Notes under the pieces: generated by a model | Databases searched by the model: none | The model's input: the letters and a program-made list of their open reading frames with translations, nothing else | What the model was told of the DNA's origin: nothing | NCBI GenBank assembly: GCA_947631045.1 | Contig: CANRJV010000013.1 | Span: 1 to 34,349 of the forward strand | DNA length: 34,349 nt | Reading direction: 5' to 3' | DNA from: an uncultured Bacilli bacterium | GTDB lineage: Bacteria > Bacillota_I > Bacilli_A > RF39 > UBA660 | Shown here: one piece after another, positions 27,784 through 34,349 of the stretch | Position numbering within the stretch: position 1 is the stretch's first letter | How the letters are laid out: every line of letters begins with the position of its first letter | Translations under genes and position numbers: made by a program

Positions 27784-28221
27784 GTGAATAATAAAGGTTT
27801 TACATTAATTGAACTTTTAGCAGTTATTGTTTTACTAGGAGTTATTATTACCATTGCGGTACCATCAATAAATGGTATTGTTAATAGTATTAATAAAAAT
27901 ATGTTAGAAAAAAAAGTAGTTTTAATTGAAGAAGCTGCTAGTATGATGGGAGAAGATATTAAAGGATCTATTATTAATAGTTCATTAAAATATAAAGATT
28001 TTCCTTGTAAAAGTTTTATTATAAGTGATTTAGTACCGCAATATTTAGATAAAGATAATGATAATGAATGTTTAACTAAAGATAGTACTGAGACTCTAGG
28101 ATGTATTATAAATCCTAGTGCTAAAGATACTTATTTAGATAAATTAGAAGTAATAATTTATTATAAAAATAAAAGAATTAGTGCTAAAGTAGATACTTTA
28201 GATGAACTTACATGTAGTTAG
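27784..28221 (+). CDS. Type IV pilin-like protein with prepilin leader
   Basis: 145 residues starting at GTG 27784 behind AGAGGTGGG. The N-terminus is a perfect class III signal: NNKG then FTLIELLAVIVLLG with Glu at +5, so a prepilin peptidase would cut after Gly5. The hydrophobic stalk helix continues to about residue 30. The head has four Cys, possibly two disulfides. It may be a pilin or pseudopilin for fibres or DNA uptake (ComG-type). It lies 14 bp after ysxC and its last bases overlap upstream frames of der, an unusual position. No prepilin peptidase or assembly ATPase is seen in the window. Confidence 0.88.
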   Translation: MNNKGFTLIELLAVIVLLGVIITIAVPSINGIVNSINKNMLEKKVVLIEEAASMMGEDIKGSIINSSLKYKDFPCKSFIISDLVPQYLDKDNDNECLTKDSTETLGCIINPSAKDTYLDKLEVIIYYKNKRISAKVDTLDELTCS

Positions 28222-28231
28222 GGGGATTAAT

Positions 28232-29536
28232 ATGCAAACTGTTTGCTTAATTGGAAAACCAAATGTGGGTAAAAGTAGTATTTTTAATCGATTAATTAAA
28301 GAAAAAAAATCGATTATTTTAAGTGAACCAGGAATTACCAGAGATCGCATTTATGGCACTGTAGAATATAAAAATAAAAAGTTTAGTTTAATTGATACAG
28401 GTGGTATTCATGGTGAAGCTGATAACTTTGATAAAGATATTTTAATGCAAGCATCTTTAGCTATTGAAGAAGCCGACATCATTCTTTTTGTAGTGGATGG
28501 TTTAGATAATATAACTGATGCCGATAAAAAGATTCGGAATATGCTTAAAAAAAGTCAAAAAAAAGTTATTGTTTTAGTTAATAAAATTGATAATGAAAAA
28601 AGAAATGATTTAATATATGCTTATTATGAATTAGGCTTTGAAAATATTTTACCAGTTTCGGCTGAACATAATTTAGGTTTTAAAGAATTATTAGAACTCG
28701 TTACCAAAGATATGGAGGAAGAAGAGGAAGAAAAAGAAGATATTCTAAAATTCTGTTTTATTGGTAGGCCTAATGTGGGAAAAAGTTCTTTAATTAATGC
28801 TTTACTAAATGAAAGTAGAGTAATTGTTAGTGATGAAGCGGGAACTACTAGAGATGCCATTGATACAAGACTTACTTATGATAAAAAAGATTATATTGTT
28901 ATTGATACCGCCGGAATGCGGAAAAAAGGAAGAGTATATGAAGAATTAGAAAAATATAGTTTAATGCGTAGCATGAAAGCAATCGATAGAAGTGATGTGT
29001 GTGTTTTAGTTATTGATGCTAAAGAAGGTATCATAGAACACGATAAACATATTTTATCTTACGCTATTGAGGCAGGTAAAGGAATTGTAATTTGCGTTAA
29101 TAAATGGGATACCGTTAAAAATCCTAATGAAGATTTAAAAAAATGGAAACAAGAATTAGAAGTTTATTTTAAATTTGTTCCTTATATTAATTTTGTTTTT
29201 ACTAGTGCTTTAACGAAAAAAAGATTACACACTCTAATGCCTGAAGTAATTAAAGCTTATGAAAATAATCGAAAAGAAATAAAAACTAGTTTATTAAATG
29301 ATGTTATAAGTGAAGCCGTATCTTTACATGAACCACCTTCATATAAAGGAAAGAGATTAAAAATCTACTTTGTCAGTCAAACTGGTAGTAGACCTCCGAA
29401 ATTTACTTTTAATGTTAATAGTAAAAATTTAATTCATTTTAGTTATGAAAGATATTTAGAAAATAAAATAAGAGAATCTTTTGACTTAGAGGGAACACCA
29501 ATTATATTACAATTTAAAAATAAAAATGATAAATAA
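28232..29536 (+). CDS. der: Ribosome-associated double GTPase Der/EngA
   Basis: 434 residues with two tandem GTPase domains and a C-terminal KH-like domain, needed for 50S subunit assembly. Domain 1: GKPNVGKSS, DTGGI, NKID. Domain 2: GRPNVGKSS, DTAGMR, NKWD. The end has the family pattern PPSYKGKRLKIYFVSQ and RPPKF. The two G domains are joined by an acidic Glu-rich linker. ATG 28232 follows TTAGGGGG; an in-frame ATG 28202 inside the pilin gene is less likely. A terminator follows. Confidence 0.97.
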   Translation: MQTVCLIGKPNVGKSSIFNRLIKEKKSIILSEPGITRDRIYGTVEYKNKKFSLIDTGGIHGEADNFDKDILMQASLAIEEADIILFVVDGLDNITDADKKIRNMLKKSQKKVIVLVNKIDNEKRNDLIYAYYELGFENILPVSAEHNLGFKELLELVTKDMEEEEEEKEDILKFCFIGRPNVGKSSLINALLNESRVIVSDEAGTTRDAIDTRLTYDKKDYIVIDTAGMRKKGRVYEELEKYSLMRSMKAIDRSDVCVLVIDAKEGIIEHDKHILSYAIEAGKGIVICVNKWDTVKNPNEDLKKWKQELEVYFKFVPYINFVFTSALTKKRLHTLMPEVIKAYENNRKEIKTSLLNDVISEAVSLHEPPSYKGKRLKIYFVSQTGSRPPKFTFNVNSKNLIHFSYERYLENKIRESFDLEGTPIILQFKNKNDK

Positions 29537-29566: not shown

Positions 29567-29618
29567 CTAAATCCAATTATTTTTCATAATAATATTTTAG
29601 TTATATTAGGTGGTTATT

Positions 29619-30485
29619 GTGAAAAAATATATATCTATAGAAGAATATTTTAGAAAACAAACTATATCTAAAAAAAATAATAATAATTTAAAAATAGTTA
29701 GATATATATTTGGTTTATTATGTATAATCATTATTTTATTTTCTTTATATATTATTTTTAAATGGAGTTTTGATAATTATAAAATTCATCAAATTTATAA
29801 AAATATCAGTCAAAATATTAATTCTTATCAAAATAATAATCCTGGACAATTAGTTAATGAGCCTTATAATAAAAAAAGTAATTACTATTATTATGTTACT
29901 TTTCCTTTTTATCAAGCTGATTTTTCCAATTTATTAGAGGTAAATAATGATACAGTTGGTTTTATTAAAGTACCAAATACGATTATTAATTATCCTATAG
30001 TTCAGACTAATAATAATGAATATTATTTAACTCATTCATTTGATAAAAAGAAAAATAAAGCGGGATGGCTTTTTATGGACTATCGTAGTAGTATTGATCC
30101 TCTAGGGGATAATACTATTATTTATGGGCATAGAAGAATAGATGGAACTTTATTTGGGTCATTAAGAAATGTTTTAACATCAACTTGGCAAAATAATAAA
30201 GATAATTATATAATTTATTTTTCTACTTTAAAAGAGAATATGCTTTTTCAAATTTTTTCTATTTATACTATTGAAAAAGAAAGTTATTATATAACCACTT
30301 ATTTTCGAAATAGCCTTGAAAAACAAACATGGCTTGATACTATTCAAAAAAGGAATATTTCCAAAATAGCTACAGAAGTTGATATAAATGATAAAATTTT
30401 GACTTTATCCACTTGTTTTGGAGATTCTTCAGAAAGATTAGTAGTCCATGCTAAATTAATAAAAAAGCAAATAAATGAAAAATAG
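29619..30485 (+). CDS. Class B sortase
   Basis: A 288-residue cysteine transpeptidase that links surface proteins to the cell wall. Transmembrane helix at about residues 28-50, then the sortase barrel: TVGFIKVPNTIINYPIVQ, AGWLFMDYRSS, IIYGHR with His171, and TLSTCFGDSSERLVVHAKL with catalytic Cys266 and Arg273. The GHR/TLSTC...R arrangement and helix-rich region before Cys (about 215-250) fit class B. Start GTG 29619 follows TAGGTGG. The next gene ends in an NPGTS sorting signal and is its evident substrate. Confidence 0.94.
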   Translation: MKKYISIEEYFRKQTISKKNNNNLKIVRYIFGLLCIIIILFSLYIIFKWSFDNYKIHQIYKNISQNINSYQNNNPGQLVNEPYNKKSNYYYYVTFPFYQADFSNLLEVNNDTVGFIKVPNTIINYPIVQTNNNEYYLTHSFDKKKNKAGWLFMDYRSSIDPLGDNTIIYGHRRIDGTLFGSLRNVLTSTWQNNKDNYIIYFSTLKENMLFQIFSIYTIEKESYYITTYFRNSLEKQTWLDTIQKRNISKIATEVDINDKILTLSTCFGDSSERLVVHAKLIKKQINEK

Positions 30486-30549
30486 ATAATAATAATTAAT
30501 ATTTAGCATATGGTTTATTGTAATTGGAAAGGAGACAATATTTTTAGAA

Positions 30550-31332
30550 GTGAGAAATATTAATAAGTTTTACAAATTAAGTATCTTTTTTATTTCCTTA
30601 TTTTTAGTAACAGTTTTACAAGTTAAGGCTTTAACAGTTTGGAAATATGAAGATTGGCAAACCAAAGATTATGGAACAAAAACTAAGGTATCATCAAATA
30701 TAACAAATCTTAAAGGGGAAAAAGACGAAGATGAAGGAATGAAAAAAGGCCCTTATAATAAAGCTAGTAAAGCCAAGTTAAGTGATGGTATCACGGAAGA
30801 AGTTTATGTTGGATTAGATTTTGATAATTATAAAAAAGATGATTTGTTTGAATTATCCATAGCTATAAATAAAAAGGAAGATAATAAAGATTCTGAATAT
30901 TTAACTGAAGCAGTTGTTATGACTCAAAGAAGTAATGATAAATTTGTTTTAACAGCGGGTTGGGATAAAAGTGATGATCCTATTGCGACAATAGATGCAA
31001 ATGGAGTCTATACTTATAGATGGGAATTTAAAAAAGAAAATAATAAAATTAAAGTTAAATTTACAGTATTAGATTATGGAACAGTTTTAGGAACAACTGA
31101 TTTTGTTGAATTAGAAGTTGCTGATTCTAGTAAAGCTACGGATTTTAGATATTTATGGGCTTGCAATATTAAAGCAGATTATGGAGTAGATATTTATACT
31201 GAATTACCTCCTAAACCTGGTTCTACAGAAAATCCTGGCACTTCAGATATTAATTTGTGGTTATTCTTAGGCTTAATTGCTTTTGGAGGTACTGGTTTAA
31301 TATATCTTAATAAAAGTAAAGCTAATTGTTAG
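30550..31332 (+). CDS. Sortase-anchored surface protein (NPGTS signal)
   Basis: 260 residues: signal peptide ending at about Ala27 (LQVKA), a beta-rich outside domain (about 28-215), a Pro-rich stalk (ELPPKPGSTE), and a sorting signal NPGTS (228-232) followed by a hydrophobic helix (236-253) and the tail NKSKANC. NPxTS-type signals are typical of class B sortases, and the sortase gene lies 64 bp upstream. The start is uncertain: AAAGGAG (30528-30534) is 15 bases from the GTG at 30550, too far for an ideal site; an ATA or TTA codon nearer to it is in frame. The outside domain is not recognised. Confidence 0.88.
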   Translation: MRNINKFYKLSIFFISLFLVTVLQVKALTVWKYEDWQTKDYGTKTKVSSNITNLKGEKDEDEGMKKGPYNKASKAKLSDGITEEVYVGLDFDNYKKDDLFELSIAINKKEDNKDSEYLTEAVVMTQRSNDKFVLTAGWDKSDDPIATIDANGVYTYRWEFKKENNKIKVKFTVLDYGTVLGTTDFVELEVADSSKATDFRYLWACNIKADYGVDIYTELPPKPGSTENPGTSDINLWLFLGLIAFGGTGLIYLNKSKANC

Positions 31333-31345
31333 TAATTAAGAAGGA

Positions 31346-31371
31346 GAGAGAGTGAGACTCTTCTTTTTTTT
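31346..31371 (+). terminator. Terminator after the sorted protein gene
   Basis: A purine-rich arm including AGAGT pairs with ACTCT around GAG and is followed by TTC and eight T. It lies immediately before the G-rich leader of the next gene. Confidence 0.6.
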
Positions 31372-31546
31372 GGCATGGAGGGGAGAGGGATAAATAGGGG
31401 GCCCCGCGGGGGGGGAGGGAGGAAGATAAAAAAATAAAAAATATAAAAATATTTTCTGGAAGAAGGAGAAAGGAGGGAAGGGAGATGGAAAAGAAGAATA
31501 CGATGTTGCTGACGGTAATAGCAGTAGCAACATTATTAGTAGCGGT
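31363..31546 (+). repeat. G-rich leader and signal-sequence repeat, copy 1
   Basis: Copy 1 of a long direct repeat whose second copy is at 34182-34349. It runs from a T tract through G4-capable DNA (GGGG, GGG, GGGGG, GGGGGGGG and GGG between 31380 and 31419, loops 3-7 bases), an A-rich segment, a purine-rich ribosome site and the first 20 codons of the downstream gene. Compared with copy 2, copy 1 has one more G in the longest run (8 versus 7), small changes at the start and A-rich part, and about 10 extra bases before the ribosome site; the coding part is identical. Confidence 0.93.
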
Positions 31547-32363
31547 AGTGGGAGCAACATTCGCATACTTCAGCATAACAGTAGAAGGAGGTACATCAAC
31601 AACCGCAGCAACAATGCAAACGCAACAATTACCAACAATTACGATGAAGACTGGTGAAAGTACTTTTGGGATTGCAGCTACTGTTCAAGATATGGCGATG
31701 AATAATTCTGGTGCTAGATGGGCGATAAATACTAGTGATAAGGATAGTAGTAACGCATCTAGTGGTAAAGGTGATGAAACCGGGCTTTATTATTGGAGTT
31801 CTGAAGAGAAAAAATATAATTTATTTAGTATTTCTACAAGTGGTGTTGGTGCCACTACCGAAAACGATGGTTCGACTTACGAATGCCCGGTGACGATAAC
31901 TCTTTCTGCGGATAAAGCAATCAGTGAATTAACTAGTGGCGATTTGATATTGTATTTATATTCTAAGGGCGGAGATGTCGAAGTATCTGATATGAACGCT
32001 TCAGATAATACTCAAGATTTAATAGAAGATTGGAAAAATAGTACAAAAACATATTTAATGAATACAGAAGATAAGAGTTCTGGTCATAGTGGTGAGAACG
32101 GATGCGCAACTGAGAGGGGCTGCTACGATGTAAGTGATTTATTTAAAACATCAAATATTGAAAAAAAATTGTATACTGTCGTAATTGTTAAAAATGATAC
32201 TACTAGTAGTGATGGAGAAGGAACTTCAGTTCTTGCAAGCATGAAACTTGTTAATAAATCAAGTGCTGATCAAAGTGGTTTGGCTGGCAAAGACATCAGG
32301 ATTACTATAATATCGCAATTAGATAAAGCTGGATGTAAAGTAATTACCAAAGCAGCAGAATAA
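31485..32363 (+). CDS. SipW/TasA-like exported protein with repeated leader
   Basis: 292 residues. The start MEKKN, a hydrophobic stretch (about 7-26) and VVGATFAYFS match the SipW-dependent type of signal peptide used by TasA/camelysin-like fibre proteins (GxTxAxFS). Residues 30-55 are Thr/Ala/Gln-rich. The body is mostly beta with CPVTITLSADK, a Cys pair (GCATERGCYDV) and the end TIISQLDKAGCKVIT; it resembles camelysin-type domains only in general plan. GGAGGGAAGGGAG precedes the ATG. The first 20 codons and the whole leader are repeated at 34182, so the gene belongs to a family with constant 5' ends. Codon and base composition change after about codon 45. Confidence 0.75.
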   Translation: MEKKNTMLLTVIAVATLLVAVVGATFAYFSITVEGGTSTTAATMQTQQLPTITMKTGESTFGIAATVQDMAMNNSGARWAINTSDKDSSNASSGKGDETGLYYWSSEEKKYNLFSISTSGVGATTENDGSTYECPVTITLSADKAISELTSGDLILYLYSKGGDVEVSDMNASDNTQDLIEDWKNSTKTYLMNTEDKSSGHSGENGCATERGCYDVSDLFKTSNIEKKLYTVVIVKNDTTSSDGEGTSVLASMKLVNKSSADQSGLAGKDIRITIISQLDKAGCKVITKAAE

Positions 32364-32370
32364 TAAAATT

Positions 32371-32393
32371 GAAGAGTAAAATCTTCTTTTTTT
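32371..32393 (+). terminator. Terminator after the SipW/TasA-like gene
   Basis: GAAGA (32371-32375) and TCTTC (32382-32386) form a stem followed by seven T. The sequence is nearly the same as the terminator at 22433. Confidence 0.8.
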
Positions 32394-32439
32394 AATACCA
32401 ATTTAAAAGATAATTATTTTTCTTTTAAATTGGTATTAA
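32392..32439. repeat. 19-bp perfect inverted repeat
   Basis: 32392-32410 (TTAATACCAATTTAAAAGA) is exactly complementary to 32421-32439, with a 10-base loop. A T-rich run follows, so it could serve as a second terminator; it is much longer than the other terminators here. Confidence 0.85.
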
Positions 32440-32471
32440 TTTTTTCAACACAATAAGAGCAATTGAGAGGA

Positions 32472-32495
32472 GGAAAATGCAATATTGCATTTTCC
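32472..32495. repeat. 24-bp perfect palindrome over a micro-ORF start
   Basis: GGAAAATGCAAT (32472-32483) is followed without a gap by its exact reverse complement. GAGAGGAGG precedes it, and the ATG at 32477 opens a 10-codon frame (MQYCIFRIFL) ending at 32509. Confidence 0.8.
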
Positions 32496-32534
32496 GAATA
32501 TTTTTGTAAAACGAATTTTTTTGAAATATGATCA

Positions 32535-32578
32535 TTTATAAAATATTTTGTTAAAAAGTTTTCAAAATGTTTTATAAA
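32535..32578. repeat. 16-bp inverted repeat
   Basis: 32535-32550 (TTTATAAAATATTTTG) pairs with 32563-32578 with one G-T wobble and a 12-base loop. Confidence 0.75.
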
Positions 32579-32822
32579 GTTTGATTTTGTGTCAAAAATA
32601 GTTTTTCTTATCCTTGATTTTGTGCAAGTTACTTATTTATTAAATCTTAATAACAATATTTTTACCGCAAAATCCTTTAACACAATTTTAATTTTAAAGA
32701 TCAGATAAATTTTTATAAATTAAGAGGACAATATTATATTAATTTTTTTGCTATCTCCGATTTTTTATTAAAAACATTTCCTGATTTTTATTAATTTATT
32801 ATCCTATTTTTTCTTAATAGTG

Positions 32823-32851
32823 TTGTTTAATTAATTACAATATGATAGAAT
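32823..32851 (+). promoter_or_regulatory. Promoter of the DUF4143 ATPase gene
   Basis: -35 TTGTTT (32823-32828), 17-bp spacer, -10 TAGAAT (32846-32851), followed by AGGTGAT and ATG 32871. Confidence 0.6.
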
Positions 32852-32870
32852 AATTAATAGGTGATTAGTA

Positions 32871-34127
32871 ATGGAAAAGTATTTAAAAAGAGTTCTTGAT
32901 GATATTATTGAAAAGAAAATGCAGTCAATTGGGGCTGTATTAATTGAAGGACCAAAATGGTGTGGTAAATCAACAACTGCTAAAAATCATGCCAAAAGTA
33001 TTATTGAATTTCAAGATGTAGATAAAAAAAGTAATTATGACATTATTAATAAAACTAAACCTTCATTATTCTTAGATAATGAACGACCGCTTCTAATAGA
33101 CGAATGGCAAATGTATCCAGTTGTTTGGGATGCCATAAGAAACGATATTGATAAATCAGGTTTACAAGGGCAATTTTTATTAACTGGTTCCGCTAAGCCA
33201 ACAGAAGATAAGACAATGCATACTGGAACTGGCAGAATTAGTCGTGTTTTAATGCGACCAATGAGTTTATATGAATCAAAAGAATCAGATGGAAAAATAA
33301 GTTTGAAAGATTTATTTAATGATAATGTTGAAGTAGACATAAAAGCTAATATTTCCCTTGAAAAGATAATAAAATGGATTATAAGAGGAGGATGGCCTTT
33401 ATCTCTTTATATAAAAAATCCTGAAGAAGTTGTAAAAGACTATTATCAAAGTTTAATCCATGAAGGTGTTAACAATGAAGGTAACATTGTTTATAATCCA
33501 AATAGAATGTCTTTAATTTTAAAAAGTTTAGCTCGAAATATATCATCAATTACTAATGTATCTACTATAGAAAATGATATAAAATCAAATTATGAAAATA
33601 TTGCTAGAAATACTTTAGATGATTACCTTAATTCATTAAAAAGATTATATATATTAGAAAATATTCCGGCTTGGAATGGTAAAATGCGTTCTAAAATAGC
33701 TATTAGAAGTAAAGAAAAAATTCAATTTGTTGATCCTTCAATTGCTTGTGTAGCTTTAGGAGCAACAGAAGAAAAATTAAAAAAAGATTTAAATTCATTA
33801 GGATTATTGTTTGAAAGCTTATGTATAAGAGACCTTCGAGTTTATGCCGATTCATTAGGAGGCAAAGTTTATTATTATCATGATGAAACGGATTTAGAAA
33901 TAGATGCTATTGTTGAATTACAAAATGGTGACTGGGGAGCATTTGAAATAAAACTAGGAGCCGGATTTATAGAAGAAGCTGAAAAAAATTTAATCACTTT
34001 TAAAGAAAAAGTAGATTTAGAAAAGAAGGGAGCGCCAAAATTTCTTTGCGTATTGACAGGTATAGATTATTCATATAAAACCAATAATGGTGTATATGTT
34101 ATATCTATAGCTAATTTAAAAGATTAA
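32871..34127 (+). CDS. AAA_14/DUF4143 ATPase with PD-(D/E)XK-like C-terminus
   Basis: 418 residues. The N-terminal ATPase has Walker A EGPKWCGKST (26-35), Walker B LLIDEW (74-79) and a sensor-like LLTGSAKP. The C-terminal DUF4143 region ends in a nuclease-like core DLEIDAIVEL...FEIKLGAG (Asp345, Glu359, Lys361), the D...E-x-K pattern of PD-(D/E)XK enzymes. Family members are common, multi-copy, mobile-looking genes in gut bacteria and archaea; their role is unknown, although defence or regulation of DNA has been suggested. The gene has its own promoter and ribosome site and is bracketed by the two G-rich leader repeats, so it may be cargo of a recombining unit. Confidence 0.93.
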   Translation: MEKYLKRVLDDIIEKKMQSIGAVLIEGPKWCGKSTTAKNHAKSIIEFQDVDKKSNYDIINKTKPSLFLDNERPLLIDEWQMYPVVWDAIRNDIDKSGLQGQFLLTGSAKPTEDKTMHTGTGRISRVLMRPMSLYESKESDGKISLKDLFNDNVEVDIKANISLEKIIKWIIRGGWPLSLYIKNPEEVVKDYYQSLIHEGVNNEGNIVYNPNRMSLILKSLARNISSITNVSTIENDIKSNYENIARNTLDDYLNSLKRLYILENIPAWNGKMRSKIAIRSKEKIQFVDPSIACVALGATEEKLKKDLNSLGLLFESLCIRDLRVYADSLGGKVYYYHDETDLEIDAIVELQNGDWGAFEIKLGAGFIEEAEKNLITFKEKVDLEKKGAPKFLCVLTGIDYSYKTNNGVYVISIANLKD

Positions 34128-34168
34128 GAAAAATATCAAATAATAAAAACAAAATAATAAAAGAAAGG

Positions 34169-34188
34169 AAGAGGGGCTCTCTTTTTTT
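34169..34188 (+). terminator. Weak terminator after the ATPase gene
   Basis: AGAG/CTCT around GGG, followed by C and a run of seven T. As in copy 1, the terminator abuts the G-rich leader. Confidence 0.5.
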
Positions 34189-34349
34189 GGTGGGGAGAGA
34201 GGGATAAATAGGGGGCCCCGCGGGGGGGAGGGAGGAAGATAAAAAAATAAAAAATAAAGAAATATTTTCTGGAAGGAGGGAAGGGAGATGGAAAAGAAGA
34301 ATACGATGTTGCTGACGGTAATAGCAGTAGCAACATTATTAGTAGCGGT
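34182..34349 (+). repeat. G-rich leader and signal-sequence repeat, copy 2
   Basis: Second copy of the repeat at 31363-31546, cut by the window end. G tracts GGGG, GGG, GGGGG, GGGGGGG and GGG lie between 34192 and 34232 with the same ATAAATA and CCCCGC spacers. It lacks about 10 bases before the ribosome site relative to copy 1. It begins 55 bp after the ATPase stop codon. Confidence 0.93.
34288..34349 (+). CDS. SipW/TasA-like protein, 5' fragment (window end)
   Basis: The first 20 codons are identical to those of the gene at 31485 (MEKKNTMLLTV and the following hydrophobic stretch), with the ribosome site GGAGGGAAGGGAG directly before the ATG. The rest is outside the window, so nothing can be said about the body. 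It is probably a paralogue with a different exported domain. Confidence 0.8.
   Translation, partial: MEKKNTMLLTVIAVATLLVA

Follow-up and report, generated by a model that had tools for sequence, protein, structure and literature searches.

The 34,349-nt window analysed here is a whole contig (C13) of a 1.31-Mb genome in 81 contigs from an uncultured bacterium of the Bacilli (labelled G000; the other genomes carry labels such as G007, G009 and G019), and its right-hand end holds a surface-protein (SP) gene, SP1, behind a leader with a GC-rich block and tracts of G, as well as a second such leader and the start of another gene of the kind. Our results suggest that these genes belong to a surface-protein variation system in which one promoter serves a set of silent cassettes, and we consider this reading probable, at least over evolutionary time. 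That is, only the SP copy adjoining the promoter would be made, and homologous recombination across two arms would either move the promoter segment or swap the bodies (the parts of the genes behind the signal sequence) that stand behind the promoter; a lineage would thereby change its surface protein, with the silent copies as its reservoir. That variation at this locus is programmed is what we infer from sequence.

A probable tandem array of surface-protein genes

The 15-mer GGGGGCCCCGCGGGG from the GC-rich block lies at 31397-31411 and 34211-34225 of the window, with ~2.8 kb between the copies, as a preliminary description of this DNA had it, but the genome holds eight copies of the block and not two. 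This repetition is not due to chance: G000 (1.31 Mb) has six copies of the 15-mer, in the forward orientation only (reversed-pattern control, 0), and none of the 59 other genomes searched has any, while the 10-mer GGGGGCCCCG occurs eight times in G000, on the + strand only (contigs C13, C49, C64 and C69), and in none of 37 congeners. When the DNA of the leader and gene start was searched against the genome, 14 matches came up, on C13, C49, C64, C69 and C8. Contigs C13, C49, C64 and C69 end inside a leader or gene start (outgoing ends; the right end of the window is thus within the repeat), and C49, C64, C69 and C8 begin inside one (incoming ends), which makes 4 + 4 ends in a single orientation. 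The simplest arrangement therefore appears to be one tandem array, C13-(C49, C64, C69, order among them unset)-C8, the pieces of which total 18.1 kb and carry nine related surface-protein genes in the same orientation (Table 1), with the Der gene on the left and, by-eye reading, a ZIP transporter gene on the right. Interspersed among the SP genes are DUF4143-type ATPase genes, of which some are broken, and a minus-strand gene that by eye appears Fic-like; L021:4707-4997 and L023:1161-1880 are open remnants of broken ATPase genes of this kind and lie between units. Since all eight array contig ends fall in a leader or gene start, the array is visible on no single contig, and it stands as a warning that short-read genomes break at loci of such design.

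All nine SP genes share one SipW-type signal sequence and differ in their bodies, and thus the genome search called for in the preliminary description, together with the list of what follows the signal sequence, did bring out many copies with different bodies behind a constant signal sequence. Compared with SP1, the signal-sequence DNA shows 0/87 differences in SP4 and SP7, three in SP3 and, among the copies that are cut, 0/50 in SP2, 0/67 in SP5, 3/66 in SP8 and 2/78 in SP9; SP6, which is leaderless, has 14/87 differences, yet encodes almost the same peptide. The 20 readable codons of the second copy in the window equal those of SP1, as had been noted, and the earlier suggestion of recent exchange or gene conversion finds support in this DNA-level homogenisation of the signal sequence. 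The designation "SipW/TasA-like", on the other hand, is to be limited to the signal sequence because the protein matches no Pfam or NCBIfam family at E 0.001, including the TasA/camelysin family models. The SP product has a beta-rich AlphaFold2 model (pLDDT 79, pTM 0.78), for which we found no clear structural relative. The genome encodes RecA and three signal peptidases that match TIGR02228 over cut-off, which we take to be the model for SipW-type signal peptidases, and these three could process the SP signal sequence. In four genomes, a leaderless second family gene follows bodies of the kind termed type Y here (Table 1), which suggests that two genes make up some of the cassettes.

One promoter copy beside apparently silent relatives

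Eight leaders were seen in G000, seven with the GC/G block and no recognisable promoter, and one, preceding SP3 on C49, with a canonical promoter (TTGACA-N17-TAAAAT) in place of the GC/G block. The SP3 leader equals the silent leaders up to gggggccccgcg, continues with the promoter, and then rejoins them before the ribosome site. A separate promoter scan lists the SP3 site (L021 2413-2441, 11/12) and no + strand site at 31014-32284 of the window, it being noted that such scans list about as many sites in shuffled sequence (45 vs 35.4; 20 vs 21.4). Judged by promoter consensus, a single promoter copy with all other copies promoterless was found in four genomes, G000, G019, G032 and G035; both kinds of leader occur in each of the latter three as well, with one promoter leader each beside five, four and one silent genes found, respectively. 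A search with the SP3 leader gave a near-full-length match once per genome in these same four and, among the matches listed, none in the remaining 34 of the 38 genomes. Other congeners hold fragments of the one-promoter layout.

The fetched loci contained at least 86 family genes, which our own promoter score divided into 28 with ordinary promoters, 22 with poly-G-spacer promoters, 28 with none and eight at contig edges; 17 of the promoterless genes were counted as silent-type, and most of the other 11 lie close behind another family gene. A promoter score of <=1 was obtained for 39 of the 76 family leaders with enough sequence vs 2 of 1520 shuffles, and the purine fraction was 0.82 in silent leaders (n = 16) vs 0.65 (n = 62). 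By eye, the first ATG is absent from all five silent copies of G019, the single one of G029, three of the four of G032, and both G026 silent copies with a visible start. The silent copy at L204 (G026 C56, ~2207, minus strand) stands directly behind Der with an open body; its first ATG is missing, as is a portion of its signal sequence. Promoter and silent leaders have two arms in common of the kind that homologous recombination could use, i.e., the RGGCCCC block upstream and, downstream, the signal sequence and partly the ribosome site. Alignments of G000, G019 and G032 display these shared arms; for G035 the upstream block, although present in both copies, was put in the wrong place by the aligner.

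Apparent exchange of bodies and promoter leaders between species

Body trees, built without the signal sequence, place the four promoter-bearing bodies in separate groups that each include silent bodies as well, and a single clade of promoter-bearing bodies is rejected (approximately unbiased [AU] test, p = 2.6e-12; 39 rows from nine genomes, namely silent copies, promoter copies, leaderless copies and those at contig edges); the tree of all 87 rows gives the same picture. The promoter-bearing body of G019 is sister to a silent G032 body (100/99) and that of G035 to a silent G007 body (97/85). Comparable observations come from slots, that is, positions defined by their flanking genes (flanks 88-96% identical). 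In slot 1, which follows an ATPase gene common to G000, G019, G026 and G032 (89-96% identity), the promoter leader precedes a type-A body in G000 and a type-Y body in G032; behind a silent leader stand a type-Y body in G026 and yet another body in G019. Slot 2, after a second ATPase gene (95.5% identity, G019 vs G032), has the promoter leader in G019 and a silent leader in G032, so that the slot of the promoter leader differs between these two congeners. Behind the Fic-like gene, where the 88%-identical stretch also covers ~230 nt of the gene that follows, the relative of the promoter-bearing body of G019 is present in G032 as a silent copy. Rather than two copies with no exchange of bodies, which would have spoken against the preliminary description, we find many copies and what appears to be body exchange across species, promoter-bearing vs silent.

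Within G000, the longest shared runs of 10 of the 15 type-A body pairs are significant at p < 0.05 (p <= 0.0004 for SP1-SP4, SP3-SP7 and SP2-SP7), by a test that does not correct for rate variation within the gene. SP3 and SP7 share 32 consecutive polymorphic sites at the 3' end (permutation p = 0.0002). We regard this evidence for exchange within G000 as weaker than that between species.

Alternatively, the locus might be an ordinary tandem family subject to slow unequal crossing over, with 5' ends kept alike by concerted evolution, no variation system, and promoterless copies that are decaying or expressed by unrecognised means; we consider this unlikely. Direct repeats invite unequal exchange, one of the differences between G019 and G032 could be a single deletion between leaders, and part of the signal sequence is gone from one G026 copy. 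Several further points weigh against the silent-cassette system that we propose. The exchange of bodies and promoters is read from differences between species, and all of these could be slow unequal crossing over. Within G000, 5 of the 15 type-A pairs show no excess shared run (p > 0.05), that is, the mosaicism is patchy, and the homoplasy test is weak (p = 0.015 when all sites are used, 0.74 when only third positions are, and 0.27 when SP4 is left out). The arrays of G007, G009, G026 and G029, which are fragmentary, yielded no promoter copy. The silence of the promoterless copies is judged from a consensus scan, and that none of the 16 silent leaders tested (of the 17 silent-type) scores 2.5 or better is a partly circular comparison because the silent class was drawn partly by promoter absence. 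Finally, the ATG and ribosome site are kept by the silent genes of G000, G007, G009 and G035 and by one G032 copy. However, plain decay predicts neither a single promoter copy in four species nor bodies that are kept open, and the histories of the promoter segment and of the bodies are separate. We favor the reading of one promoter serving silent cassettes by homologous recombination.

The RGGCCCC block and the G tracts

Searched genus-wide, the R type of the ATAG-RGGCCCC pattern (a restriction set after the leaders had been seen) gives 23 hits, 22 at family leaders in six genomes and one elsewhere (G060), against a background of nine hits with other letters and 16 hits of the reversed-pattern control. 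The RGGCCCC block stands before promoter and silent copies alike, and we interpret it as a crossover arm or an anchor. In the silent leaders of G000, G007, G009 and G035 it is followed by G tracts, while G019, G026 and part of G032 have other purine-rich sequence in place of the tracts and keep RGGCCCC. It might be hypothesized that a dedicated enzyme, as in the vpma system described below, moves the promoter segment by site-specific recombination at RGGCCCC, since the block is found at both leader kinds in the six genomes, nearly all of its R-type hits are at leaders, and the two kinds diverge just downstream of it. The divergence point, however, differs in its distance from RGGCCCC among species, and the downstream junction falls within coding sequence, which makes such an enzyme very unlikely in our view.

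The preliminary description had also called the leaders capable of forming a G-quadruplex (G4), with G runs of 8 vs 7 in the two copies. The run lengths are correct, and the two window leaders match the canonical G3+N1-7 pattern, which is found nowhere in the other 31.3 kb of the window on either strand, and so do 6 of the 7 silent leaders of G000 (the exception is at the C49 end). This distribution would fit gene conversion started by a quadruplex as at pilE of Neisseria, with the G4 of each leader as the trigger. We judge this extremely unlikely: the motif is missing from the promoter copy, the reverse of pilE, and a pilE-like role is unsupported because the G tracts change in relatives while RGGCCCC stays; further, a consensus promoter scan that covered both strands of 30400-34349 has no entry at either GC block, and the block, folded as single-stranded DNA with a program that does not model quadruplexes, does no better than shuffles. 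The G4 is a possible extra of the G000 species. Slippage of the leader G tract, which had been suggested to tune expression, is unlikely to do so because no promoter (-35/-10 pair) was found around the G run. Lastly, an assembly or binning artefact, i.e., repeats of several strains in one metagenome bin, is hardly credible, as short-read contigs do break within the repeat but the layout recurs in separately assembled genomes, partly at the same Der locus, and the reported contamination of G000 is 0.12%.

Comparison with known systems

The closest known kind, by analogy, is vlhA of Mycoplasma synoviae, described as one promoter site with promoterless relatives in one region, where recombination delivers a new body to the promoter (PMC4206340, PMC2825196). 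The array resembles it in having one promoter and promoterless relatives in one region, and differs in its protein family, the signal-sequence arm kept by its silent copies, the interspersed ATPase genes, the upstream RGGCCCC block, and the fact that exchange is seen between species only. With pilE/pilS it has in common a constant N-terminus, a variable remainder, silent copies and an upstream G-rich element; in Neisseria gonorrhoeae, however, the G4 is near the expressed pilE (PMC3547852, PMC12871193) and requires small RNA (sRNA) transcription (PMC3547852), whereas the G tracts of the array mark silent copies and its promoter copy is without the pattern. The vlsE locus of Borrelia burgdorferi likewise combines a single expression site with silent cassettes, which are contiguous there (PMC11499132), but the vls region has 27 G runs/kb, compared to 4.8/kb in the SP bodies (vs 4.5/kb in other genes). 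Both pilE and vlsE follow the same logic as the array, but their G-rich sequence differs from that of the array in where it lies or how dense it is (PMC3547852, PMC12871193, PMC3585125). The vpma genes of Mycoplasma agalactiae, also a variable surface-protein family in a small genome, switch by Xer1 site-specific recombination (PMC5634654). Meningococcal porA has a poly-G tract within its promoter (PMC3639595); poly-G promoters stand before other genes of the present genus, unlike the array leader, where the G tract has no recognisable promoter around it.

The poly-G-spacer promoter pattern was found at 62 sites in 18 of the 38 genomes (reversed-pattern control, 0), with tracts of 8-10 G and spacers mostly of 18-20. 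G000 has eight such promoters, TTGACA-N10-G(8-9)-TATAAT, seven of them on C6 (Table 1), where the tandem genes around them encode long exported proteins, many of which end in a VPKTNDN...KRKENN anchor. Going by these sequences, the C6 genes are a second array, of the slippage type.

Features of the window and related loci

The sortase and anchored-protein genes (29610-31332) separate Der from the array in the window, and the anchored protein has no match in Pfam or NCBIfam. In G007, G009 and G026, such a leader comes directly after Der; in G007 the leader match lies within about 350 bases after the Der match. The two window leaders are followed by start ATGs at 31485 and 34288. Positions 34182-34349 match the first copy at 91% identity and have a deletion of 10 bases ahead of the ribosome site. 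Terminator-like hairpins before the four leaders tested have z-scores of -1.8, -2.0, -0.5 and -2.5, and a terminator scan of the coding strand lists none of the hairpins before leaders.

Table 1. Coordinates of the locus in the window and of related sites on other contigs and in other genomes
Feature	Position	Strand	Basis or remark
Der (EngA) GTPase gene, left border of the locus	28202..29536	+	Pfam MMR_HSR1 and KH_dom-like
Class B sortase gene, neighbour of the array	29610..30485	+	TIGR03064 over cut-off
Exported protein with C-terminal anchor-like segment, neighbour	30550..31332	+	Open reading frame; anchor by eye
Terminator-like hairpin and T tract before leader 1	31337..31371	+	Fold -12.1 kcal/mol, z -1.8
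Leader 1, silent type	31363..31484	+	No promoter found
Quadruplex pattern (canonical) of leader 1	31380..31415	+	Includes GGGGGCCCCGCGGGG
Conserved block ATAG-RGGCCCC	31394..31405	+	Genus-wide pattern search
SP1, surface-protein gene, type-A body	31485..32363	+	Probably a silent copy
Constant signal-sequence arm of SP1	31485..31571	+	0/87 nt differences among SP1, SP4 and SP7
AAA_14/DUF4143 ATPase gene, between units	32871..34127	+	Pfam PF13173, PF13635
Terminator-like hairpin and T tract before leader 2	34164..34188	+	Fold -8.2 kcal/mol, z -2.0
Leader 2, silent type	34182..34287	+	
Quadruplex pattern (canonical) of leader 2	34192..34228	+	
Next surface-protein gene, start only	34288..34349	+	Cut by contig end; 20 codons equal to SP1
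SP genes by contig	SP1 C13; SP2-SP4 C49; SP5-SP7 C64; SP8 C69; SP9 C8		
Leaderless second genes	L022:744-1454; G019 C6:2265; G026 C63:4483; G032 C49:7215		
Poly-G promoter sites of G000	C6:8343-27066 (L154, L155); C41:6217 (L156)		

Implications

It is possible, although doubtful enough that we put it forward only tentatively, that these gut Bacilli have a programmed switch of the surface coat, in which the promoter segment hops between cassettes via a dedicated RGGCCCC site and a frozen signal arm, and that a second, slippage-driven poly-G array operates in addition. If true, commensals would possess two independent engines of surface variation, perhaps directed against phages or mucosal antibodies. 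The one-promoter silent-cassette systems compared here are all from pathogens, and a conserved system of this design in uncultured Bacilli that are probably gut commensals would make coat switching a commensal strategy too.

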